DNA of 64,000 nucleotides, from contig NZ_FNGS01000005.1 of assembly GCF_900103285.1 (NCBI RefSeq), positions 1 through 64,000 on the forward strand, written 5' to 3'. Origin of the DNA: Siphonobacter aquaeclarae. Lineage in GTDB: Bacteria > Bacteroidota > Bacteroidia > Cytophagales > Spirosomataceae. Both the position numbers and the translations under genes were made by a program. Within the stretch, counting starts at the first letter, position 1. Every line of letters begins with the position of its first letter. Under the pieces are notes generated by a model. It searched no databases, was not told the origin of the DNA, and saw only the letters and a program-made list of their open reading frames with translations. Shown one piece after another: positions 1,901 through 15,720 of the stretch.

Positions 1901-1939
1901 AAACAGCTCCCGTCCGAAAAGGGGGGAGCTGTTTCTTTT
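1901..1939 (+). terminator. Rho-independent terminator after the beta-helix gene
   Basis: An 11-bp perfect stem (AAACAGCTCCC at 1901-1911 with GGGAGCTGTTT at 1924-1934) is followed by CTTTTT. It lies 18 bp after the stop codon of the beta-helix gene, so the next gene is transcribed separately. Confidence 0.8.
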
Positions 1940-2036
1940 TGGTCACCCGGCAAAATCGATCTTTCTCCTAATTGGCGTTTCCAATAAGTAATGTAGATTC
2001 GTTCGACAACCGCCCGGGCTATCGGCATCATCCGCT

Positions 2037-2738
2037 ATGAACCTCACCCAATCCCTCCGCAACGAAGGCTATGACTACATCGACAGCCTCGTCCGCAACC
2101 ACAAGCTCGGACAGCTCTGGCTGCGGAAAAATTTCAATGAACCGGAACTGTATTTTGAACGGGTGACGGATGCTTTTTCCAGCGATGTCGCATTGGAAGA
2201 GATCCTCAATCCGGCTCTCAACGTCGATTTCAACCAGCAAAACACCTTCAAATTCAACATCGGTATGACGGTGCTGGAAGAAACCCTGACCTCCATCGGC
2301 ATGTCGCAACTGGGTTTGTCGACCAAACTGTCGACCGGAAAGTCGGTCTCCATTAAGTTCGACCACACGCTGTCGAAAGAATATGCGCTCGGTAACATGG
2401 AGCATTTCTTTCAGGAAGCGGATTTCGTCCGGCCCAGCCCCTCGCTGCTTCGGAACGCCAATAAGAACTTCATTCTATTTGTTTCGGGATTGATCGAGGC
2501 GGAAAACCTCATCGCCGAGATCAATACCGACAAGGAAATCAGCGCAGAGGTCGTTGCTGAACTGACCGAAGCGGCAAAAGGTACCGCTTCCTTCGACCTG
2601 ACGAAAAAGACAACCCTGAAGATGACCTCCGATCCGGGACAGCGGTTTCCGGTCGCGGTCAAAGCGCACCGGTTATTTTACGACAAGGGTGTCTTCGGGC
2701 AGATGAAACTGATTTCGAACGTGTTGGAAACGTTCTGA
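2037..2738 (+). CDS. Candidate bacterial gasdermin-like pore-forming protein
   Basis: The protein has 233 aa, no signal peptide and no hydrophobic membrane segment. Its residue pattern follows that of bacterial gasdermins: an L-x3-GY start (residues 7-12), a short strand with LWLRK (27-31), then FKFNIGMTVLEETLTSIG (71-88), a KSVSIKFDH strand (102-110), a helix ending FFQEAD (124-129), a long hydrophobic strand NFILFVSGLIEAENL (144-158) and PVAVKAHRLFYDKG (205-218). In that family the protein is cytosolic and autoinhibited until a protease removes a short C-terminal peptide; it then forms very large membrane pores. Two features are odd: there is no cysteine at all, whereas characterised members are palmitoylated on an N-terminal Cys, and only ~15 residues follow RLFYDKG. 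No protease gene is adjacent. The family call rests on remembered pattern, not a search. The alternative is an unrelated cytosolic protein. Confidence 0.55.
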   Translation: MNLTQSLRNEGYDYIDSLVRNHKLGQLWLRKNFNEPELYFERVTDAFSSDVALEEILNPALNVDFNQQNTFKFNIGMTVLEETLTSIGMSQLGLSTKLSTGKSVSIKFDHTLSKEYALGNMEHFFQEADFVRPSPSLLRNANKNFILFVSGLIEAENLIAEINTDKEISAEVVAELTEAAKGTASFDLTKKTTLKMTSDPGQRFPVAVKAHRLFYDKGVFGQMKLISNVLETF

Positions 2739-2808: not shown

Positions 2809-2859
2809 AAAAAAGGGAAGCATGTACCGGCGTATGCCCGCGACATGCTTCCCTTTTTT
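2809..2859. terminator. Strong bidirectional hairpin terminator
   Basis: The arms at 2809-2825 and 2843-2859 are 17 bp and perfectly complementary. They start with six A and end with six T, so the structure works in both directions. It lies 70 bp after the gasdermin-like gene. Confidence 0.85.
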
Positions 2860-3525
2860 CTTCCCGAAAACGATCTTTCCGGCTAAATCCACCAGGTGAT
2901 CCGGCTATTTATGACAGCGAAAGCGGGTACTCACTACTAAAGAATACGTCATTATTTTCCTACAAAACACGTATTCGCTACTAATATCTCAACAGGAATT
3001 TCTATTTTTGACCTACTAATATTCAGAAACGCTTGCCAGATGTGCCATAATCTGAAGGAAGCCGATCTGTTAAGTATCCGCTACATAAGCTTCTCTTTCG
3101 TCAATCATCTGTCTGCAGCGTTGATTGATTCTTTTCCCGCCAGTTAAAATCCCGCCGGAGTACTCAGTAAAAATAGAATTCGATCTTTCAACTGTAACTC
3201 TTTGCGATTACTACTATGAGTCACCCATTACTCCCTGTGTCTGAAACAGCCTGTATGTCGGCGGATATTCAAAAGCATTCTTCTACGACCGAAATCAACT
3301 ACTAATCAGGCGAATAGCTTGTTCTGATCGGGTGTATTCTTCAGGAGATCTCCGTGTCTTGTCACGACGGCCTCCAGTGAATCTGCCATTTTCTCATATG
3401 CCTAAGCGAACGGGTACGTTACCGCAGGTTCTCCGCCTGGCGTAGCGACATCAGGAGTCATTTCCGGGGGGTTCGCCAGCAGACAGGACAAGCATTCCGC
3501 ATGACCTAAACTTTATCGTATCCCT
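2860..3525. other. Long gene-free, AT-richer intergenic stretch
   Basis: No frame here is convincing: the open frames are short and cover no recognisable domain. The stretch is AT-richer than its surroundings and contains the CTACTAA repeats described separately. It separates the isolated gasdermin-like gene from a T9SS cargo gene and could hold a promoter or a decayed gene. No protease remnant could be recognised. Confidence 0.5.
2934..3306. repeat. CTACTAA(T) repeats with a GAATACGT inverted repeat
   Basis: CTACTAA occurs at 2934-2940, 2978-2984, 3013-3019 and 3299-3305; the last three continue with T. The first two flank an 8-bp inverted repeat, GAATACGT (2942-2949) and ACGTATTC (2969-2976). 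The symmetrical layout of direct repeat, inverted repeat and direct repeat could be a regulator-binding site or the edge of a decayed element. Confidence 0.4.
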
Positions 3526-4629
3526 ATGAAAATTATCTACTCCTTTATTCTGTTGCTTCTGTTTCAAATTAGCTATGCCCAAACAGAGGCGGATTTTTGT
3601 GTCATTTCGCCGAATACCCTGCCCGGGACAACGGGATTCGGCGGTACCGGCGGCGGCGGATATGCCATGACTTCCCCGATTAATGCGTACGATGCAGACA
3701 CTTCGACATTCGGCTATATCCATATCGCTCCGACACCCCCATTCTTTCCGCCGAAACCGGCCTACTCGATCAGTATGGGGGTCATCTTTGGATCTACATT
3801 GCCGGCGGGATCGTTTATCCGTTTCAGAGTCGGAACATCTGACCTTTCGCCGACTTTCACGTACAGCATTACAACAGATGCAGAAACGATCATACCAACG
3901 CAACCGGTGAGCAATCTGCCGGGCGTCGCGCCTGCTTACATCGGAGACGCGTCTCCGTCTGATCCGCTTGGTTTCCAGCTGACCCAGGCAGCAACCCGGG
4001 TGACCTTCACCCTGAATGTACCTGCTAATTATTTCTACAACGGATCGAGGATGCTTCGGGTATATTCCATCGAAGCCACCGGCATTTGCAGCCCTCCGCT
4101 GCCCGTTTCGCTGACTGGTTTTCAGGCTGTAAAAAGGGGATCTTCCGCCGAACTGGCATGGGCTACTGCAAGCGAAAAGAATAACCTCGGATTTGAGATT
4201 CTCAAGAGCAGGGACCTGGCATCCTGGGAGAAGATCGGCTATGTTTCTTCTTCCGTAACCAACAGCAATAGCCGGCAGGAATACGGATTTACGGACGCGG
4301 CGCTTGCCGCCGGCACGACTTACTACCGCCTGAAACAAGTGGATGTTGATGGGAAATATACGCTGAGTCCGATCCGCTCCCTCGATACGGAAGGTGATCT
4401 GAGCGCGCTGCTCCGCTTTACTAATCCGGTCGGCAACAGCATTGCATTCGAATCAGAACCTGCCGGCGTCGCAGACCTGGCTATTGTGCAAACAGACGGA
4501 CGTGTTGTCATCGCGGGTATTCCTGCATTAAAATCCATTCCCGTCAGCCAGCTTGGCCGGGGCGTCTATATTCTCCGGGTACGGATGCAGAATGGAGCGG
4601 TGGTTGCGAGACGTTTCGTCAAAGAATAA
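3526..4629 (+). CDS. Secreted T9SS type A cargo protein
   Basis: The protein has 367 aa with an N-terminal signal peptide (MKIIYSFILLLLFQISYA, cut before Q). Residues ~20-185 form a Gly/Thr/Ser/Pro-rich beta domain of unknown role. From ~190 the module typical of Bacteroidota cargo proteins begins: LPVSLTGFQAVKRGSSAEL, then WATASEKNNLGFEILKS, a YRLKQVDVDG strand and a terminal sorting domain ending in LGRGVYILRVRM. It is therefore expected to be exported by the type IX system and anchored at or released from the surface. No enzyme motif is visible. It ends at a hairpin terminator and faces the NIPSNAP gene convergently. Confidence 0.7.
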   Translation: MKIIYSFILLLLFQISYAQTEADFCVISPNTLPGTTGFGGTGGGGYAMTSPINAYDADTSTFGYIHIAPTPPFFPPKPAYSISMGVIFGSTLPAGSFIRFRVGTSDLSPTFTYSITTDAETIIPTQPVSNLPGVAPAYIGDASPSDPLGFQLTQAATRVTFTLNVPANYFYNGSRMLRVYSIEATGICSPPLPVSLTGFQAVKRGSSAELAWATASEKNNLGFEILKSRDLASWEKIGYVSSSVTNSNSRQEYGFTDAALAAGTTYYRLKQVDVDGKYTLSPIRSLDTEGDLSALLRFTNPVGNSIAFESEPAGVADLAIVQTDGRVVIAGIPALKSIPVSQLGRGVYILRVRMQNGAVVARRFVKE

Positions 4630-7413: not shown

Positions 7414-7441
7414 GCATGGGGCAAAGGGCATAGAGCAGTAG
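7414..7441 (+). repeat. GC-rich heptamer tract (GCANNGG class)
   Basis: Four consecutive 7-nt units, GCATGGG, GCAAAGG, GCATAGA and GCAGTAG, sit upstream of the lipoprotein gene in the 362-bp gap before the next gene. The same units recur at 41334-41400 and 56616-56699, where they form inverted pairs. Here only one orientation is present. Confidence 0.6.
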
Positions 7442-7462
7442 CAAAGGCGAATACCTCCCCTT

Positions 7463-7550
7463 GGTGGTTGAGCCCCGTCGAAACCACCGGCAGCCGTCCT
7501 TTTCATTCCAAACATGCTCTCCACGCCAGTTTCGACGTAGCTCAACCACC
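7463..7550. repeat. REP-like inverted repeat
   Basis: The 22-nt arms at 7463-7484 and 7529-7550 match in inverted orientation at 20 of 22 positions. The core is GGTGGTTGAG...GTCGAAAC. Both arms are followed by an ACCACCGGCAGCC-like tail. The motif resembles extragenic palindromes of the GTTTCGAC...CTCAACCACC type that are widespread in other bacterial groups, notably Actinobacteria, as far as I recall. No RAYT transposase gene is in the window. Confidence 0.6.
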
Positions 7551-7623
7551 GGCAGCCACGTCTCATGGGATTTGCGTCTCCTAAAAACTTAGTTATATTG
7601 CCCCCTCACTTCACCTCCAATCC

Positions 7624-8890: not shown

Positions 8891-9637
8891 ATGCCCAACA
8901 TTCTCCTCATCACCGGCTCCTCCGAAGGTATCGGCGCGGAGGCCGCCCGGCTCGCCGCGTTGCGCGGGTATACGGTTTGTGTGAATTACCGAAGCAACCA
9001 GGCAGGCGCAGAGACCGTCGTCGCTGATATACAAAAGGCTGGCGGTCAGGCATATGTCTTTCAAGCCGATGTGGCAGACGAGGCTCAGGTATTTCGGCTC
9101 TTCCGGCAGATCGACGAGGAGGTTGGCCCACTTTCGGCTCTGGTCAACAACGCTGGTATCATCGAATCCCAGAGCCGCCTGGTGGATATGAGCGCGGAGC
9201 GGCTCACGAACATGTTCGCGGTCAATACCATCGGAGCTTTTTTGTGTGCGAGAGAAGCCGTGAAGCGGATGTCTACCGCGCGGGGAGGGGCCGGCGGTGC
9301 GATTGTCAACGTCTCATCGATGGCAGCCAAACACGGCTCGCCGTTCGAGTACATCGACTACGCCGCCACCAAAGCGGCGTTGGATACCATGACGCTGGGG
9401 TTATCAAAGGAAGTTGGCCCGGAAGGTATCCGGGTTAATGCCGTGCGGCCCGGTATTATCCTCACGGATATTCATGCGAAGGCGGGGGAGCCCGGCAGAC
9501 CGGAGCGCGTCCGTGATACCATTCCGCTCAAGCGTCCCGGCACGGCACCGGAAGTAGCGAATGCCATTCTCTGGTTGTTGTCGGACGAAGCCTCGTTTGT
9601 CAACGGCGCCCTGCTCGACGTCACCGGCGGGCGCTAG
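8891..9637 (+). CDS. SDR-family NAD(P)-dependent oxidoreductase
   Basis: The 248-aa length is classical for this family. The cofactor-binding motif TGSSEGIG is at 8-15, NNAG at 86-89, the catalytic Ser at ~143 and Tyr157/Lys161 in YAATK. The C-terminal half has the usual VNAVRPG and a closing NGALLDVTGG. It resembles 3-oxoacyl-ACP reductase / glucose-1-dehydrogenase-like SDRs. The substrate cannot be read from sequence; NADPH preference is possible from the VNYRSN after the second strand. It is cytosolic. DoxX follows after 42 bp, possibly in the same transcript. Confidence 0.85.
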   Translation: MPNILLITGSSEGIGAEAARLAALRGYTVCVNYRSNQAGAETVVADIQKAGGQAYVFQADVADEAQVFRLFRQIDEEVGPLSALVNNAGIIESQSRLVDMSAERLTNMFAVNTIGAFLCAREAVKRMSTARGGAGGAIVNVSSMAAKHGSPFEYIDYAATKAALDTMTLGLSKEVGPEGIRVNAVRPGIILTDIHAKAGEPGRPERVRDTIPLKRPGTAPEVANAILWLLSDEASFVNGALLDVTGGR

Positions 9638-9679
9638 GCCTTTCTTCAGAATACCGTATCTTGCCGGAAATCAAAAGCC

Positions 9680-10063
9680 ATGAAATACCTCTCCCTTCAG
9701 CGATCGGTCGTTCTGCTGCGCATCAGTGTAGCGTTGGTATTCTTCCTGCATGCCGCTGTCCGCGTCGTTCACAATACTGTGCCGGAATTCACGCAGTTTA
9801 TGGCCGGAAAACACTGGCCATTTCCCAATGTAACGGTCTGGGTACTATCCGGTTACGAGTTGATTGGCAGTGTATTGCTTGCGTTGGGCTATTGCGTGAA
9901 GTGGCTGTCGGCCGGGTTTATCCTGATTCTCGTCGTTGGAATCATCCTCATCCACCTGTCCCTCGGCTGGTTTGTCGGGGAGCACGGTACGGGCGGGGTG
10001 GAGTATAGTTTTATTTTGATCGTGGCGTTGGTGGTGGTAATGGCGGGGGATCGTGAACGATGA
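9680..10063 (+). CDS. DoxX-like small membrane protein
   Basis: The 127-aa inner-membrane protein has four predicted helices (~10-28, ~55-72, ~75-95, ~105-122). The DoxX-type order is visible: SVVLLRISVALVFFLHA, a WPFPNV loop and SGYELIGSVLLALGY. DoxX relatives are found in oxidative-stress or quinone-linked membrane complexes, but the role of this one is unknown. It may be co-transcribed with the SDR upstream. Its stop codon (TGA 10061-10063) directly abuts the stop codon of the convergent quinone oxidoreductase gene, with no spacer. Confidence 0.75.
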   Translation: MKYLSLQRSVVLLRISVALVFFLHAAVRVVHNTVPEFTQFMAGKHWPFPNVTVWVLSGYELIGSVLLALGYCVKWLSAGFILILVVGIILIHLSLGWFVGEHGTGGVEYSFILIVALVVVMAGDRER

Positions 10064-11023
10064 CTACTTTATCGTGAGAATAATCTTCCCGATATGCCCG
10101 CCCGACTCCATCAGCCGGTGCGCTTCTGCAGCGTCTTCCAGCCGAAAAGTACGGTAGATGTGCGCGCGGAGACGCCCCTGAGACACGAGCGGCCATACCT
10201 GTTCTTCCACCTCGGCTGTGAGCGCCGCTTTGAAATCATCGTCTCTCGGAGAGAGCATACTCCCCGTCAGTACCAGGCGTTTCCGCATGATTTCCATGAT
10301 GTTGATGGTCGATTTGATACCGCCCAATCCCGCCAGCCAGCAAATCCGCCCGTCCGGATTCAGCATCCGGAGGTGTTTGGCGGTATAGTCTCCGCCGATG
10401 TAGTCGAGGATAGCGTCTACGGGCGGCAGTACTTCCTCAAAATCTTCCGTCTTATAGTTCACACAACGCTCCGCACCCCAGGCCTCCGCGAAGCGGCATT
10501 TCTCGTCTGAACCGGCAGTCGCAAACGCGCGTACACCCCGCTCCCGGGCGAGCTGCAGGGCCGTCAGCCCGATGCCGCTTGTCCCGCCCTGGATCAGCAG
10601 GGTTTCCCCGCGCCTGACGTGCATGCGCTGAAAGACGTTACTCCAGACCGTCAGTACCGTTTCCGGCAGGCCGGCCGCTTCTTCCAGCGAGACATTCTCC
10701 GGTACCGGCAGGCAATGCCGGCCATCGGCGGCGGCATATTCGGCATATCCGCCACGGGGGAGGAGGGCGCATGCCCGGTCGCCTTTTTTCCAGCGGGTGG
10801 AATCGCCCGGATCTTCAATGGTACCGGCCACTTCCAGACCAAGTATTTCGACACCTGTAGCCGACGGCCCATATTGCCCCGCCCGCATCATCACATCGGC
10901 GCGGTTGACTCCTGCCGCGTGAACACGGATCAGTACCTGTCCCGGTTTGAGGGAAGGTACCGGCCGCTCCGCGATCCGGAGTACTTCCGGACCGCCTGAA
11001 GTAGTGACCAAACTGATTTTCAT
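10064..11023 (-). CDS. NAD(P)H-quinone oxidoreductase (zinc-independent MDR/PIG3-like)
   Basis: The 319-aa protein has an N-terminal GroES-like fold (EVLRIAERPVPSLKPGQVLI, VNRADVMMRAGQYG) and a Rossmann domain with QGGTSGIG near residue 146. The structural zinc cysteines and catalytic zinc ligands of alcohol dehydrogenases are absent, as in quinone oxidoreductases of the PIG3/QOR branch. The expected activity is NADPH-dependent reduction of quinones or enones in the cytosol. It is the last gene of a three-gene minus-strand run, starting 2 bp after the DinB gene stops, so translational coupling is likely. A detoxification role fits its neighbours. Confidence 0.8.
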   Translation of the reverse strand: MKISLVTTSGGPEVLRIAERPVPSLKPGQVLIRVHAAGVNRADVMMRAGQYGPSATGVEILGLEVAGTIEDPGDSTRWKKGDRACALLPRGGYAEYAAADGRHCLPVPENVSLEEAAGLPETVLTVWSNVFQRMHVRRGETLLIQGGTSGIGLTALQLARERGVRAFATAGSDEKCRFAEAWGAERCVNYKTEDFEEVLPPVDAILDYIGGDYTAKHLRMLNPDGRICWLAGLGGIKSTINIMEIMRKRLVLTGSMLSPRDDDFKAALTAEVEEQVWPLVSQGRLRAHIYRTFRLEDAAEAHRLMESGGHIGKIILTIK

Positions 11024-11025
11024 CG

Positions 11026-11532
11026 TCAGGATCGGGTTAGCACGCGCACCGTTACGAGCAGTTGCCCGAGGTGGCGCATGGTATGTTCGGCCGCATGTAC
11101 GTAGAGACCGTTGGAAGTAGAGGGAATTTTCGCCCGCCCCACGTACCGCAACCGCGTCAGCCCGGAGGCTTCTTCACCGCGCAACTGGGTCAGGCAGGCT
11201 TCTTTTTGGGTATGAAAAGCCTGAACAAGAGACGATACCGTGAGCGAGTCAGCGGGTTTGCCTTCCGCCGCAAGTGCCTCCAGTTGCGGCTCCGAGAGCA
11301 TTTCGCCGCGGGCATAGGTAAAGAGCCGGTCGAGTACGCCCCGCAGGTGCTGCAGGTGGAAACCCGGCGAGGCCAGGCCCGCCGGACGCTCCCACAGTTT
11401 GGATTGGGGAAAGTCGGCCAGAAGGGCATCCAGCTCTTCACCGGCCTGCAGCAGAGCATGTGCAACGGGCTGCAAAAGGGCGGGCATATCGGGCAGAGGA
11501 CCGCGCAACCATACTTCTCGGGGATCTGACAT
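11026..11532 (-). CDS. DinB-family (four-helix) protein
   Basis: The 168-aa protein fits the DinB/YfiT four-helix bundle: HLQHLRGVLDRLF (~58-70) and the C-terminal HAAEHTMRHLGQLL (~146-159) supply the His residues that bind a metal in this family. The activity is unknown; many relatives are thiol-transferase-like or stress induced. It is the middle gene of the operon, 24 bp after the YdeI-like gene and 2 bp before the oxidoreductase. Confidence 0.75.
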   Translation of the reverse strand: MSDPREVWLRGPLPDMPALLQPVAHALLQAGEELDALLADFPQSKLWERPAGLASPGFHLQHLRGVLDRLFTYARGEMLSEPQLEALAAEGKPADSLTVSSLVQAFHTQKEACLTQLRGEEASGLTRLRYVGRAKIPSTSNGLYVHAAEHTMRHLGQLLVTVRVLTRS

Positions 11533-11556
11533 GTTGTTTTGGTTGAAAAGGGTGGG

Positions 11557-12048
11557 TTACTTTGCGCCGAGTCCGGCAAACGATTCCCTGCCTTCGGGCA
11601 GTCGCTTGAGGTTATCGATTAGGCGAAGCGCGCGGTCGATCCGCAACTGGCTGTTTTTTACTTCTACGACGGTCCGGATGATGAAGCGCTGCTTTCCGCC
11701 TACGAGCCTGTCAAAGCGGCGCTGCCCTTCCGGGTCCAGGGAGAGTACTTCGCGCAGCTCTTCGGGGACTTCCAGGCCATACTCGCTGTTGTCTGGTGTC
11801 AGGGACAGCCGTACTTCGTCGCCCGCCCGGACCTTCAGCTGCGTCATCCGGGTTTTGTTGAGGGTGATGTATCCGTCGCCTTCGCCCAGAGCTGTCAGTC
11901 CGCAGGGCCAGGTCAGACGGTCGTTGACCGTACATTGCAGGCGGGTATTCCAGCCGCCGACGGCTTCGACGATCGCCGCCGGGATCCGAAAATAATGTCC
12001 GCCCAGGTGTTCGAGAGATTCGACAGTCGTAATAAAATCAGTAGCCAT
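11557..12048 (-). CDS. DUF1905 / YdeI-OmpD-associated family protein
   Basis: The 163-aa protein starts at ATG 12048 (MATDFITTVESL). A longer frame would overlap the divergent gene's start and is not needed. Residues ~1-90 match DUF1905 (small beta barrel with ALGEGDGYITLNKTRMTQL). The C-terminal ~60 residues are the YdeI/OmpD-associated helix pair: PEELREVLSLDPEGQRRFDR and the family-typical RIDRALRLIDNLKR. The molecular role is unknown; YdeI has been linked to antimicrobial and stress tolerance. It is first in the operon with DinB and quinone oxidoreductase. A second YdeI-type gene lies at 58634. Confidence 0.75.
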   Translation of the reverse strand: MATDFITTVESLEHLGGHYFRIPAAIVEAVGGWNTRLQCTVNDRLTWPCGLTALGEGDGYITLNKTRMTQLKVRAGDEVRLSLTPDNSEYGLEVPEELREVLSLDPEGQRRFDRLVGGKQRFIIRTVVEVKNSQLRIDRALRLIDNLKRLPEGRESFAGLGAK

Positions 12049-12065
12049 AGCTAAACAGACATCGG

Positions 12066-13103
12066 ATGAAGAAGCTCCTCGTTTTGTTTCTCGTTGCGGC
12101 AAAGGTAACGGCCCAGCAGCAAATCCTCGAAGAAGTAGCGCGCTTTGGACGCTACCAGCCGGTAGGACTCGCTATTTCGCACGAAGGGCGCACCTTCGTT
12201 TCTTTTCCGCACTGGACGTCCGACTACCGGTACGGGCTCATCGAACTGCTGCCCGACGGGACGCAACAGCCCTATCCCAACGAAGAATGGAGCCGCGCAG
12301 GCGATCCGAAAACGCATTTTGTGGGCCTTCAAGCCTTGTATATCGACGCGTCCAATACCCTCTGGGCTCTGGATACCGGCGTCGGAGGCGTGAAGCTCCT
12401 GCGTATCAATATCCGGACGAATACCGTTGAGCGGGTTTACGCCTTCGAAGATATTCCGGCGTCGGAAATAGGCCTGAACGATGTCAATGTAGATGCAGCC
12501 CGGAATGTCGCATTTTTCTCCGATCCACGGCGTGCTGCATTGGTAGTACTCGATCTTAAAACCGGGAAAAGCCGGACAGTGCTGAAAGGACATCCGTCCA
12601 CAACTGCGAATCCTGCTTATGTACTGAAAATTGACGGCCGGGAAGTACGGGAAACCAACGGCAAACCCTTCAGCAGTAATGCCAACGGCATTGCTCTGAC
12701 AAAGGAGTATTTTTACTTCCGGCCCATTACCCAAACCCGCCTGTTTCGCGTGCCGGTTGAAGTACTGGTGAAAGGTACGGATGCGGAAATTGCCGCCGCC
12801 GTTGAAGTAGTAGGAGAGGTAGGTATCTCGCACGGCATGTTTGCCGACGCCGACGGGAATATTTACATGGGTGATTCGGAAAAAAAGACCCTGTACCGAT
12901 GGGTTGCGTCGGCCGGTCAAACGGAAGTACTCGTTCAGGATGAGCGGATATTATGGCCGGATAGCTTTGCCATCAGTCCTGACGGATACCTCTATGTAAC
13001 CGCCGCCCAGTTGCAGCGTGCCCCGCGGTATAATGGCGGCGAAGACCGCACCGATTATCCCTTCCGTCTCTACCGCGTGAAACTTCCCCTGAACAAAAAA
13101 TAA
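12066..13103 (+). CDS. Secreted yellow/major-royal-jelly-type beta-propeller protein
   Basis: The 345-aa protein has a signal peptide (MKKLLVLFLVAAKVTA, cut before Q). It follows the MRJP/yellow propeller: an early GRTFVSFPHW, a VGLQALYIDASNTLWALDTG block, FFSDPRRAALVVLDLKTGK, SSNANGIALTKEYFYFRPIT and ILWPDSFAISPDGYLYVTA. The family is related to SMP-30/gluconolactonase propellers; bacterial members are secreted and largely uncharacterised. The start lies only 17 bp from the divergent YdeI-like start, so the two genes share one very short promoter region. A perfect terminator overlaps the stop codon. Confidence 0.75.
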   Translation: MKKLLVLFLVAAKVTAQQQILEEVARFGRYQPVGLAISHEGRTFVSFPHWTSDYRYGLIELLPDGTQQPYPNEEWSRAGDPKTHFVGLQALYIDASNTLWALDTGVGGVKLLRINIRTNTVERVYAFEDIPASEIGLNDVNVDAARNVAFFSDPRRAALVVLDLKTGKSRTVLKGHPSTTANPAYVLKIDGREVRETNGKPFSSNANGIALTKEYFYFRPITQTRLFRVPVEVLVKGTDAEIAAAVEVVGEVGISHGMFADADGNIYMGDSEKKTLYRWVASAGQTEVLVQDERILWPDSFAISPDGYLYVTAAQLQRAPRYNGGEDRTDYPFRLYRVKLPLNKK

Positions 13104-13130
13104 AACCCCGGAAGAAACCTCCGGGGTTTT
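13102..13130. terminator. Rho-independent terminator after the yellow/MRJP gene
   Basis: The 11-bp perfect arms AAAACCCCGGA (13102-13112) and TCCGGGGTTTT (13120-13130) start within the TAA stop codon itself. Runs of A and T on both sides let it serve the minus-strand gene ending at 13215 as well. Confidence 0.85.
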
Positions 13131-13214
13131 ACGCGACTAGTTGTTTAGGATTACTTAAAGATGTGGTTATGTCTTTAAGTTCTAGCAGTAAAATTAGCTG
13201 ATTTTCCTGATATT

Positions 13215-13403
13215 TTATCCAGAGTTTTTTCCTCCAAAAAGCTTCGAAGCCAGCCAGATAACCACGGCAATCGCCAGAACCACAAGCAGAATGCCGCTCC
13301 ACATTCCGGCTTTGAAAATGCCTTCGACTACTTCGCAGCCCGAGAGGGTGCCTGCCAGCAAAACGAGCAGCGGCAGGATATAAACGGATGAGGTATTTTT
13401 CAT
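13215..13403 (-). CDS. Small lipoprotein with one membrane helix
   Basis: The 62-aa protein has a lipoprotein signal (LLAGTLSGC, Cys23) followed by EVVEGIFKAGMWSG and one hydrophobic helix (~38-54), ending in a basic FGGKNSG. I recall near-identical short lipoproteins in many Bacteroidota; some databases label them phosphatidate cytidylyltransferase, which this length cannot support. It is probably a lipid-anchored plus transmembrane peptide of the inner membrane. It lies downstream of the T9SS cargo gene on the same strand. Confidence 0.65.
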   Translation of the reverse strand: MKNTSSVYILPLLVLLAGTLSGCEVVEGIFKAGMWSGILLVVLAIAVVIWLASKLFGGKNSG

Positions 13404-13460
13404 CGGATTGAAAGAAGATGGATGTCCCTTTCATTCCAAAAAAAGCTGTACCAATCCTTC

Positions 13461-15023
13461 TTACCGCACCATCACTTTCCGCGCATAGGTACCGGTGGTA
13501 TCGCGTACGGTCAGGACATAAAGCCCTGCCGTCAGGGGTGTTTTCGGCACAACGCGAATGACAGTTGCGTCCGAATCCGAACCGGTTTCAACCGGAATAA
13601 TGGTTCCCTGCAGCGACATCAGGCTCAGCTGGCTCGCGGCTTTGTCCTGTACCCGAACCGAAAATCCGCTGCCGTTGCCCGGGTTGGGGAAGACGGAAAA
13701 CAAGCGGTTTTCGGGCGAATCCACGATCACGGAAACCGTCTTTTGCGGAGTGGCCGTACCGTCTGTATCCACCTGAATCAACCGGTAATAATTGACGCCG
13801 TATCCGGGCTTCTGATCGGTATAGGAATAGTCGTGACGTTCCGACGTCGTTCCTGCTGCTTTTACCGTTGCCAGCGTCTCAAACGAGCGGGCATCCCTGC
13901 TGCGCTGGACGAGGAAGTGGGAGCTATTGCGCTCGCCTGCTGTTTGCCATTGCAGTACTGCCGTTTGTTCGGCCGTTGCCTGGCCTTTGAAGTAGGTCAG
14001 TTCTACCGGAAGGGGCAGCCTGGAAGGGCAGCCCGGCACGTCGGAAAGGAAGGGTTGATAGTGGTTTTCGGCGCTCGACTGGCTGTAGGAATTTCCGACA
14101 ATCTGCCCGTCGATATTCGAATTAATGGTTTTGTAAATATCGGCGAAAGGAGCAAAGACCGTTCCGCGGATATTCTGATCGCGGCTCTTGATATTGACCG
14201 TCGTTGCCGCCGAGAAATTATAGAGTACATACTGGGCGTCGCTGTTTTGCATGCCGTTGATGACGAACGGATCCCAGTTGAAGGTGCCGACGGAATTGAC
14301 GTTGATGACCAGCGGCGTGCTCAGGCTTGGCGCAGGGCCGTCCATCGTAATCGAAACGATTTTATTGAGCTCTGATCCGGAGATAGCCAGGATATTGGGT
14401 TTGCCGGCTGTGAGGGTAATCTTGACCTGGCCGTTGTCGGGAACAAAGGAAATCGGCTGGCCGTTGGCGTTTTTTAACTGGACGTTGTTTTCGCAGTTTG
14501 CAATATTCAGCGCGGTCGCTTTCATCGTGGCGAAGGCCTCTTCGAAGTCGATCTTTTCCTCGTCGGCGAGTAATACAGGATCGGTTGCGGGCTGCTGAAA
14601 ACCAACGAAGATTTTCGGATTGCTGTCGGGACTCGAACCCTGCTGGTGAACCTTCGTTGAACCGCCTGCAATGGTAAGCGTACTGCCGGTGAGGTTGCCT
14701 ATTTTAAGGTACCGGTTGTTGAGTACTTTCGTTTCATTACCGCTCTGGTAATTGACTTTCCCGCCGATATACAGGCCAACCAGATTGCCTTTCAGCGATT
14801 TATACGTCCCGACATTGTGGACATTGATCTGGTAGTTGCCGACGAGATTCATGTCGCCGCCCATAGCAACAGGACCTTCTGTTTCATTGCTGGAAAGCGA
14901 CGCGCTTCCTTTGACAAATACATTGAACCCCTTTGCGTCGTTGAGGGGATTTTGGGCGATTGACGAATGGGAAGTCAGAAGGCCAATAATGCTGACAGTT
15001 GAAAGAATAGTGAACCTGTTCAT
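13461..15023 (-). CDS. Choice-of-anchor A protein with T9SS sorting domain
   Basis: The protein has 520 aa with a signal peptide ending SHSSIAQ. Residues ~25-335 match the choice-of-anchor A beta-helix module: NPLNDAKGFNVFVKGSAS, GPVAMGGDMNLVGNY, GLYIGGKVNY, TFNWDPFVING and a IRGTVFAPFADI...DGQIVGNSY block. This module is known from surface proteins of many phyla that pair it with different anchors. Here the anchor is a T9SS type A tail: LPLPVELTYFKGQ, WQTAGERNSSHFLVQRS, YYRLIQVDTDG, then FSVFPNPGNGSGFSVRV and a basic end. It is likely a surface adhesin or ice/mucin-like coat protein. The ligand is unknown. Confidence 0.8.
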   Translation of the reverse strand: MNRFTILSTVSIIGLLTSHSSIAQNPLNDAKGFNVFVKGSASLSSNETEGPVAMGGDMNLVGNYQINVHNVGTYKSLKGNLVGLYIGGKVNYQSGNETKVLNNRYLKIGNLTGSTLTIAGGSTKVHQQGSSPDSNPKIFVGFQQPATDPVLLADEEKIDFEEAFATMKATALNIANCENNVQLKNANGQPISFVPDNGQVKITLTAGKPNILAISGSELNKIVSITMDGPAPSLSTPLVINVNSVGTFNWDPFVINGMQNSDAQYVLYNFSAATTVNIKSRDQNIRGTVFAPFADIYKTINSNIDGQIVGNSYSQSSAENHYQPFLSDVPGCPSRLPLPVELTYFKGQATAEQTAVLQWQTAGERNSSHFLVQRSRDARSFETLATVKAAGTTSERHDYSYTDQKPGYGVNYYRLIQVDTDGTATPQKTVSVIVDSPENRLFSVFPNPGNGSGFSVRVQDKAASQLSLMSLQGTIIPVETGSDSDATVIRVVPKTPLTAGLYVLTVRDTTGTYARKVMVR

Positions 15024-15720
15024 GGTTAAAGTTGGGGTTTTCGAATTCCAATAATTCTCCTGTTGCTGTCCGATTAACAGACAGCATTTAACAAGTAGGA
15101 AAAGGGTCGTTTTAAGCTCCCAACGATAGAATTATCGGCGGTTGTCGGAAACTTGCCAACAAACGAACATCAAAATACCAAACCGTGTTTCCGCGTAAAA
15201 ACAGCGGAAACAATGCATCGGACGAAGCGGCGCTTCGCCGTCAAAGGCGGTGTGTGAAGACGAGAGGCGGATACCAGATCACAACCCGAAGAAGGGGAAG
15301 GGCTGTGTTAACTCACAGAAAGAAGGCGGAAAACTTTCCCGAGTTATCTGAGTTACGCAGCCCAAAGGCGGCAATTTCTCATCCAAATTAACCCGATCCG
15401 TTGGCGGAACGGAAATGTACTTGTTTATATGTTTCAGAATACCGGCGCAAAGGTACAAAAGAATTTTGTTTCGCAATTGTTTTCGTGGCTTTTTTAGCGG
15501 CTTTTGATTATATTTTATCCTGATAATCAATCCGGGAGGCTCAAATTTGCGTTTTGTTAAGGCCGGAATGCTTTGCCGAAACAGGGGAAATAATCGGCTA
15601 TTTTTCCCGGGATTATCCGGCCGATAACCGACTATTTCTATACGTCAGACAATACCTTTCACGTACGGATATAAAATCCGTTTACAGCGCCGGTTAAACT
15701 ACTCAGCCGGTTGACAAAAC
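15024..15720. other. Gene-free region upstream of the choice-of-anchor A gene
   Basis: No convincing reading frame is present. The half nearest 15024 should hold the promoter of the minus-strand cargo gene. The stretch also holds two inverted repeats, a hairpin at 15186-15212 (TGTTTCCGC / GCGGAAACA) and an imperfect pair at 15300-15318 / 15348-15363 built on GGGCTG...AACTCA. Beyond 15400 it is AT-rich. Confidence 0.55.
15186..15363. repeat. Two intergenic inverted repeats
   Basis: The first is a perfect 9-bp hairpin (15186-15194 with 15204-15212). The second pairs GGGCTGTGTTAACTCACAG (15300-15318) with CTGAGTTACGCAGCCC (15348-15363), with a few mismatches and bulges. Neither has a T-run that would make it an ordinary terminator. 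Confidence 0.5.

Follow-up and report, generated by a model that had tools for sequence, protein, structure and literature searches.

A conserved subfamily of short, cysteine-free bacterial gasdermins that usually lack an adjoining caspase-like gene

The window analyzed here comprises the first 64,000 nucleotides of contig NZ_FNGS01000005.1 (C8 in our numbering; position 1 of the window is base 1 of the contig) from the 6.19-Mb, 19-contig assembly GCF_900103285.1 of Siphonobacter aquaeclarae. On its forward strand, an open reading frame (ORF; 2037-2738) encodes a protein of 233 amino acids (aa) that contains no cysteine. By homology and predicted fold, this protein is a gasdermin. It is one of a conserved subfamily rather than a single odd gene: as judged from sequence, the members consist of the pore-forming domain only, with a fixed length, without cysteine or a long C-terminal tail, and usually without an adjoining caspase-like gene. 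Bacterial gasdermins are usually described as protease-cut, mostly lipid-modified effectors, and what is new here, within the limits of the open-access literature searched, is the clade-wide constancy together with the joint absence of the three regulatory parts. The open-access texts searched gave no description of such a subfamily; an earlier mention in the primary bacterial-gasdermin papers is possible. Our preferred reading, to which we tentatively assign a probability of about 0.45, is that this gene on its own encodes a membrane-pore effector whose resting state is intrinsic and whose activation needs no cleavage, and for which we infer a pore, a trigger, and an anti-phage role.

The window protein belongs to the gasdermin family

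The original prediction had called this protein a gasdermin from the order of its motifs. Those motifs are present in the protein (L7-x3-G11-Y12, NIGMTVLEETLTSIG, KSVSIKFDH, FFQEAD, and PVAVKAHRLFYDKG), and profile searches, phylogeny, and fold all bear the call out. The NCBIfam model NF051890 (prok_gasdermin) matches residues 7-200 with an E value of 6.1e-28 and 98 bits against a curated cut-off of 100, and the PADLOC model bGSDM matches with an E value of 1.1e-18 and 65.6 bits. Both models also match, at the limits used, 27 of 27 members of the clade alignment A2 described below; the gasdermin name is therefore not new for the group, whose aligned members already fit the NCBI model. Pfam gave no match for the window protein, and a phmmer search with this single sequence found nothing in the Protein Data Bank (PDB). 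When the A2 profile was searched against the PDB, it recovered the Vitiosangium gasdermin (8sl0 and 7n51; E values of 2-3e-7) and, at an E value of 0.93, that of Bradyrhizobium.

An AlphaFold model of the window protein (predicted local distance difference test [pLDDT] 80.8; predicted template modeling score [pTM] 0.71) gave 7n51 as its top Foldseek match (E value 1.9e-12; template modeling score 0.71; root-mean-square deviation 3.9), followed by 7n50 and 7n52. Every one of the 13 matches with an E value of 0.001 or below is a gasdermin entry, and so are the first 18 entries, which include the Trichoplax gasdermin and RCD-1. A second model, of the Flavobacterium-type member L054 (pLDDT 83.2), likewise has 7n51 on top (E value 2.2e-13), and here 14 of 14 matches at the same threshold are gasdermins. 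The original prediction had named a missing profile match and a non-gasdermin fold as grounds for dropping the family call; the profile search and structural superposition that it proposed gave a gasdermin match and a gasdermin fold.

Two side observations concern the profiles themselves. The PADLOC KwaB model is also touched by 3 of the 27 A2 members (best E value 2.2e-6), and the VPA1262 family by one (E value 0.0003). Separately, locus L026 of genome G609 gives a weak gasdermin-profile match (E value 2.8e-6) in a 311-aa frame that has a lipoprotein-like start, with a cysteine after a hydrophobic stretch.

A clade of fixed length without cysteine

In searches of genome contigs, the window sequence alone gave no match, and the profile of a six-member alignment (A1) retrieved 27 loci from named genomes. 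Most are from Flavobacterium; the others come from Psychroflexus, Polaribacter, Mangrovivirga, Flammeovirga, Pontibacter, metagenome-assembled genomes (MAGs) of Bacteroidales, and the gammaproteobacterium Glaciecola. The homologs are 32-47% identical. If started at the conserved ATG, 26 of the 26 full-length loci of this search encode 233 aa and no cysteine. Within the genus of genome G588, the gene occurs in 20 of 348 genomes, always in one copy, and all 20 encode a 233-aa protein that has no cysteine and ends in phenylalanine.

After removal of duplicates, and with the window protein included, there are 41 distinct intact members, nearly all from Bacteroidota, plus that of Glaciecola; a 37-aa fragment at a contig end (L075) and a broken copy in genome G142 are left out of these counts. 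Forty members are 233 aa long and one (from G166) is 234 aa. As called, the 41 proteins together contain not a single cysteine, and all 41 end in phenylalanine; the members are kin, and these counts do not represent independent events. The missing cysteine reported for the window protein is hence a property of the whole group. The description of the gene as isolated stands insofar as no protease adjoins it at the window locus and fails insofar as the protein has 40 relatives of the same build.

A tree of 42 rows groups all 29 short sequences known at that stage in a single clade (support 99/100) on a long stem; long branches were flagged, and the position of the window protein within the clade is not settled by this tree. 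Alignment A2 contains no insertions or deletions among its 27 clade members. The ratio of nonsynonymous to synonymous substitution rates (dN/dS) is 0.04-0.14 in the 16 clade pairs (of 351) with dS below 1.2, which indicates that the clade is under purifying selection.

Both ends of the canonical gasdermin lock are missing

In canonical bacterial gasdermins, a palmitoylated N-terminal cysteine contacts a C-terminal peptide that keeps the protein inactive (PMC10989679, in excerpt). The excerpted text of PMC9612521 places the canonical cleavage site ~20 residues from the C-terminus, describes the full-length proteins as nontoxic in E. coli, and gives the N-terminal cysteine as present in the majority of bacterial gasdermins, not in all. 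Inhibitory tails in bacteria range "from a dozen" residues upward, according to the excerpt of one review. Our own searches agree with a majority: among 13 longer gasdermins (254-281 aa; the damaged or shortened L040 and L044 excluded), nine have a cysteine at position 3-8, one has its only cysteine at position 192, and three have none. The original prediction, which gave the N-terminal cysteine as a general feature of known bacterial gasdermins, was right for most of them.

We placed the ends of the clade with a profile alignment run globally, so that both ends had to be assigned a position. M1 of the clade aligns to residue 6 of L002 (cysteine at 4) and to residue 10 of L004 (cysteine at 8), and it meets residue 1 in the cysteine-free L018. 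At the other end, Phe233 aligns to residue 240 of 267 and 246 of 279 in the two cysteine-bearing groups (L002 and L004, respectively) and to 234 of 254 in L018; the result for L020 in this forced-global alignment is unreliable. Compared by sequence with the two cysteine-bearing groups, the clade is without the N-terminal cysteine extension and has 27-33 fewer C-terminal residues; compared with L018, it has 20 fewer. Position 206 of the A2 profile corresponds to residue 213 of the Vitiosangium chain, and by counting on, Phe233 would fall at about residue 240 of 266. The chain in the solved assembly 8sl0 has 237 residues.

Only seven residues (227-233; codons at 2715-2735 on the forward strand) follow the last predicted strand (E219-226) in the model of the window protein, and these are its entire tail, in keeping with the short C-terminus first noted. 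Among the members with 233 aa, position 232 holds I, F, L, or V in 39 of 40, the exception being the window protein with its threonine, and position 233 holds phenylalanine in all 40. The clade, as its alignment indicates, is without both halves of the canonical lock, i.e., the cysteine and the C-terminal peptide, and we infer that its hydrophobic-Phe end may act as a minimal latch.

Caspase-like genes adjoin other gasdermins and rarely those of the clade

A CHAT or C14 gene directly adjoins the gasdermin, on the same strand, at 12 of 15 non-clade loci (L027-L032, L040, and L041-L045). Of these, L045 has a caspase-like match 1.8 bits below the Pfam cut-off, and L040 and L044 each have a damaged or shortened gasdermin. 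The 15 are all the non-clade loci that we collected, except the one in G609, whose match is too weak (E value 2.8e-6); the pairs L029/L031 and L033/L034 each consist of close relatives. The three loci without an adjoining caspase-like gene are L033, L034, and L037, the last on a 3.3-kb contig. Among the 28 clade loci, by comparison, a caspase-like gene is within reach in two only (L062 and L064), seven of the 28 being clipped by contig ends (L057, L058, L060, L062, L065, L069, and L073).

Near the window gene itself, no adjacent protease was found, with the left flank visible for 2 kb up to the start of contig C8, and the whole contig has no CHAT, C14, or Trypsin_2 match. The absence of a neighboring protease, as first proposed, holds for this locus and for the clade as a rule, with L062 and L064 as exceptions. 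Elsewhere in the genome there are two CHAT, four C14, and one Trypsin_2 matches, all on other contigs. Whole-genome scans of the 28 clade genomes, with CHAT and C14 hits placed relative to the gasdermin by contig number and coordinate, found CHAT in 17, C14 in 7, and one or the other in 18. Neither is present in the remaining 10 (L052, L057, L059, L060, L063, L065, L066, L069, L070, and L071), of which 4 are MAGs and one, L070, is the complete Glaciecola chromosome. Because 10 of 28 genomes have neither domain, a caspase-like activator acting in trans is not general for the clade; trypsin-like and other proteases are possible.

A protein recognizable as papain-like by its Q..NC and H positions, and matching no Pfam family, lies upstream of the gasdermin in five Flavobacterium loci and downstream in Flammeovirga (family examples: L051, 5160-5798, and L072, 9089-9655). 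We rejected it as the Flavobacterium partner because it stays beside DUF3754 without any gasdermin in the L130, L132, and L136 stretches.

Two other neighborhoods outside the clade deserve mention. At L033 (6443-9223) and L034 (986-3760), a cysteine-bearing gasdermin sits directly beside an LRR-Roc-COR gene with no recognized protease domain, possibly a further kind of gasdermin partner. At L040 (G259; 9302-15624), the damaged gasdermin precedes two genes, one for a caspase-TIR fusion and one for a TIR-STAND-propeller protein.

Comparison with known gasdermins

The canonical bacterial gasdermins of Runella, Vitiosangium, and Bradyrhizobium (7n52, 7n51, and 7n50, respectively) and the window protein share a family by profile and an N-domain fold. 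The canonical proteins have an inhibitory peptide of ~20 residues, mostly together with a palmitoylated N-terminal cysteine and often with an adjoining gene for the activating protease (PMC9612521, in excerpt; PMC9079055), whereas the window clade has none of the three as a rule. In all three respects, the sequence data place the window system outside the canonical protease-activated kind.

Eukaryotic gasdermins offer closer parallels in mode. RCD-1-1 and RCD-1-2 of Neurospora (8jyy and 8jyz) are described, in the excerpts of PMC11760362 and PMC12547243, as lone gasdermin N-domains of 244-257 aa with no inhibitory C-domain, active without proteolysis through the pairing of two variants. By anatomy, the window protein conforms to this type, being an N-domain alone without an inhibitory C-domain, and the single-domain comparison made in the original prediction fits to that extent. 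It is the mode that is likened, not the sequence family, and the Foldseek match of the window model to RCD-1 is weaker (E value 2.4e-3). RCD-1 requires two incompatible partners, whereas the clade gene has no known partner and is present in one copy in 20 of 20 positive genomes of the G588 genus, where a two-variant scheme within one genome was not seen. The Trichoplax gasdermin (8jyv), a structural match to the window model with an E value of 1.5e-4, is also activated independently of cleavage, by reduction of the disulfides that lock it (PMC12547243, in excerpt). A protein without cysteine cannot use such disulfides, and the same absence excludes control by cysteine palmitate.

Genomic setting suggests gain or loss as a single gene

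We surveyed the neighbors of the clade genes using 102 representatives of 153 ORFs (of at least 80 aa) within three genes, with Pfam tallies taken from the first 25 of 87 and the first 25 of 76 families. In Flavobacterium, the gene often lies beside DUF3754 and Mpo1-like genes (present at 11 and 9 of 28 loci, respectively), and other clade loci are near dapD-like or GMP-synthase genes. Even the most frequent neighbor families (proteins of at least 80 aa), which belong to the Flavobacterium backbone, are found at no more than 11 of the 28 loci. Across 101 Flavobacterium genomes, 26 loci carry DUF3754: 3 with the gasdermin, 16 with Mpo1 within 1.5 kb and no gasdermin, and 7 with neither in the stretch analyzed. 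The DUF3754-Mpo1 site hence exists both with and without the gasdermin gene.

The gene is absent from the other five genomes of the window's genus (0/5). The regions of three same-genus species share with the window only a Cthe_2159 gene (in one genome, also a weak SDR match), and no empty-site comparison is possible there. One clade copy, in G142 (L036, about 8910-9533), is frame-broken and in pieces. The clade gasdermin has apparently been gained or lost as one gene. An origin from a mobile element or phage was considered and rejected, as no relative was found in viral contigs with the clade alignment (found via short patterns) or in plasmids and phages with the window protein as the sole query.

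Competing explanations for a gasdermin without a lock

The eukaryotic precedents for activation without cleavage, together with the exclusion of disulfide and palmitate control, lead us to favor a pore effector that is encoded by one gene and whose resting state is intrinsic. Under this model, the 233-aa protein would wait in an inactive form that depends on no palmitate and no removable peptide, held most likely by its fold and perhaps also by the very short C-terminal segment with its invariant phenylalanine. A stress or infection signal, which might be a ligand, a membrane change, or a rise in concentration, would set off oligomerization; the oligomer would then permeabilize the cell's own inner membrane, and the infected or damaged cell would die, as with RCD-1, without proteolysis. 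A broader proposal, which we regard as possible and hold more hesitantly, is that the clade is a widespread minimal gasdermin subfamily serving as a bacterial counterpart of RCD-1: a one-gene death switch with no protease, palmitate, disulfide, or inhibitory tail, kept at rest by its fold and a terminal hydrophobic-Phe latch.

Several observations weigh against this model. The last block of both predicted structures has a low pLDDT (61 in the window model and 56 in that of L054), and the proposed latch is not visible; the seven-residue tail may instead be a shrunken canonical one. Strands in the presumed membrane hairpins did not stand out from shuffles in amphipathicity in any of the seven segments. 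Another in-frame start lies upstream in 5 of the 41 members, and the extensions of L059 and L069 would contain a cysteine. The lack of cysteine is not rare by itself, since 16 of 99 neighboring ORFs of 190-280 aa also have none. In Pontibacter (L062), a CHAT gene belongs to the same strand run and is the second gene upstream of the gasdermin, with a weakly alpha/beta-hydrolase-like gene (best E value 0.035) between them, and in Bacteroidales (L064) a divergent TPR-CHAT gene, whose start resembles a signal peptide, is nearby; both may reflect a protease link in some clade members. The protease scans of the clade genomes covered CHAT and C14, and enzymes of trypsin-like, subtilisin-like, or other type may be present. 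Finally, the neighbors of the clade genes are ordinary chromosomal genes, which do not speak for a role in defense.

We prefer the intrinsic resting state to three other explanations. The protein might be active as made, like the cut product of a canonical gasdermin, and be kept scarce by a tight promoter or by rapid turnover through a hydrophobic C-terminal degradation signal, with accumulation under stress killing the cell. Its end near Vitiosangium residue 240, close to that of the 237-residue 8sl0 chain, would suit this idea, as would the hydrophobic last two residues of the clade and the terminator-like hairpins on both sides that would set the gene apart as its own transcription unit (see below). 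Set against these, signs of regulation or degradation did not turn up, the promoter candidate of the window gene is a weak one, and at most clade loci the promoter score does not beat shuffles; we consider this explanation unlikely, if the best of the three. Somewhat more doubtful is the ordinary protease-activated mode with the protease gene at another site in the genome; a caspase-like or other enzyme would then cut in a loop or among the final residues. The CHAT, C14, and Trypsin_2 matches off contig C8, the Pontibacter CHAT gene, and the presence of CHAT or C14 somewhere in 18 of the 28 clade genomes would suit such an arrangement. It accords poorly with the 10 genomes free of both domains, the complete Glaciecola chromosome among them, with the want of a long tail to release, and with the difference between non-clade and clade loci in adjoining caspase-like genes (12/15 versus 2/28).

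To the third explanation we give the least credence: the gasdermin fold would have been kept and the pores lost, leaving a non-lytic, possibly membrane-binding housekeeping function. An alignment of 27 members without indels, purifying selection, and ordinary chromosomal surroundings are all compatible with housekeeping, and the amphipathicity test did not set the hairpin strands apart from shuffles. A dispensable accessory gene is nevertheless the better fit to the patchy presence of the clade (20 of 348 genomes in one genus and none of the five others in the window's genus), to its absence at a shared site, and to the frame-broken copy in G142.

If the single-gene effector model is true, some bacteria may fire gasdermins with neither lock nor partner protease, through a different trigger and perhaps, as first proposed, with different membrane targeting. 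A conserved subfamily without all three regulatory parts would show that cells can safely carry a bare pore domain encoded by one gene, and the clade provides small natural proteins for probing the origin of gasdermin autoinhibition and the need for cleavage.

Transcription unit and flanking sequence of the window gene

The gasdermin gene starts with an ATG, and the sequence upstream offers no alternative in-frame start codon. Its surroundings are roughly as gene-free as first described: upstream, coding sequence stops at 1882, and downstream the nearest accepted gene begins at 3526. Both neighbors are on the forward strand and unrelated, the upstream one (329-1882) being pectate-lyase-like (Pfam PF12708, E value 4.8e-10) and the downstream one (3526-4629) having a weak match to a type IX sorting domain (PF18962, E value 0.01, below the cut-off).

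A terminator-like hairpin of the upstream gene (1901-1940, forward strand), followed by a T run, parts that gene from the gasdermin (-26.6 kcal/mol and z -3.58 for the fold of 1885-1945). The stronger of the two hairpins lies 3' of the gasdermin (2809-2860, forward strand; -33.2 kcal/mol and z -6.66 for the fold of 2795-2868). It has an A run and a T run at its sides, and 2809-2859 matches itself as a palindrome; possibly, this hairpin is bidirectional. A scan for consensus terminators found none and listed neither hairpin. With hairpins on both sides, the window gasdermin looks like a one-gene transcription unit with a putative promoter.

The promoter consensus of Bacteroidota is TTG-N19-TAnnTTTG. 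A weak candidate, TTG-N19-TAGATTCG (1972-2001, forward strand), has one mismatch to it; when the 150 bases upstream were shuffled 200 times, 12 of the shuffles scored equally well. In a scan of 26 clade loci, only 4, the window among them, had 21 or fewer of 200 shuffles that did as well. An exact TAnnTTTG is found upstream at 9 of 16 aligned loci, a count made with no shuffle control in AT-rich sequence, all nine being from Flavobacterium or Flavobacteriaceae.

Two repeats elsewhere in the window are recorded for completeness. Positions 1-357 have a 96% identical copy on contig C14 (968241-968599), and this repeat is probably the point at which the assembly broke. Positions 7414-7553 form an element of ~140 bases; a copy search that scored part of its candidates returned at least 35 further partial matches in the genome, at 72-100% identity and often in tandem groups.
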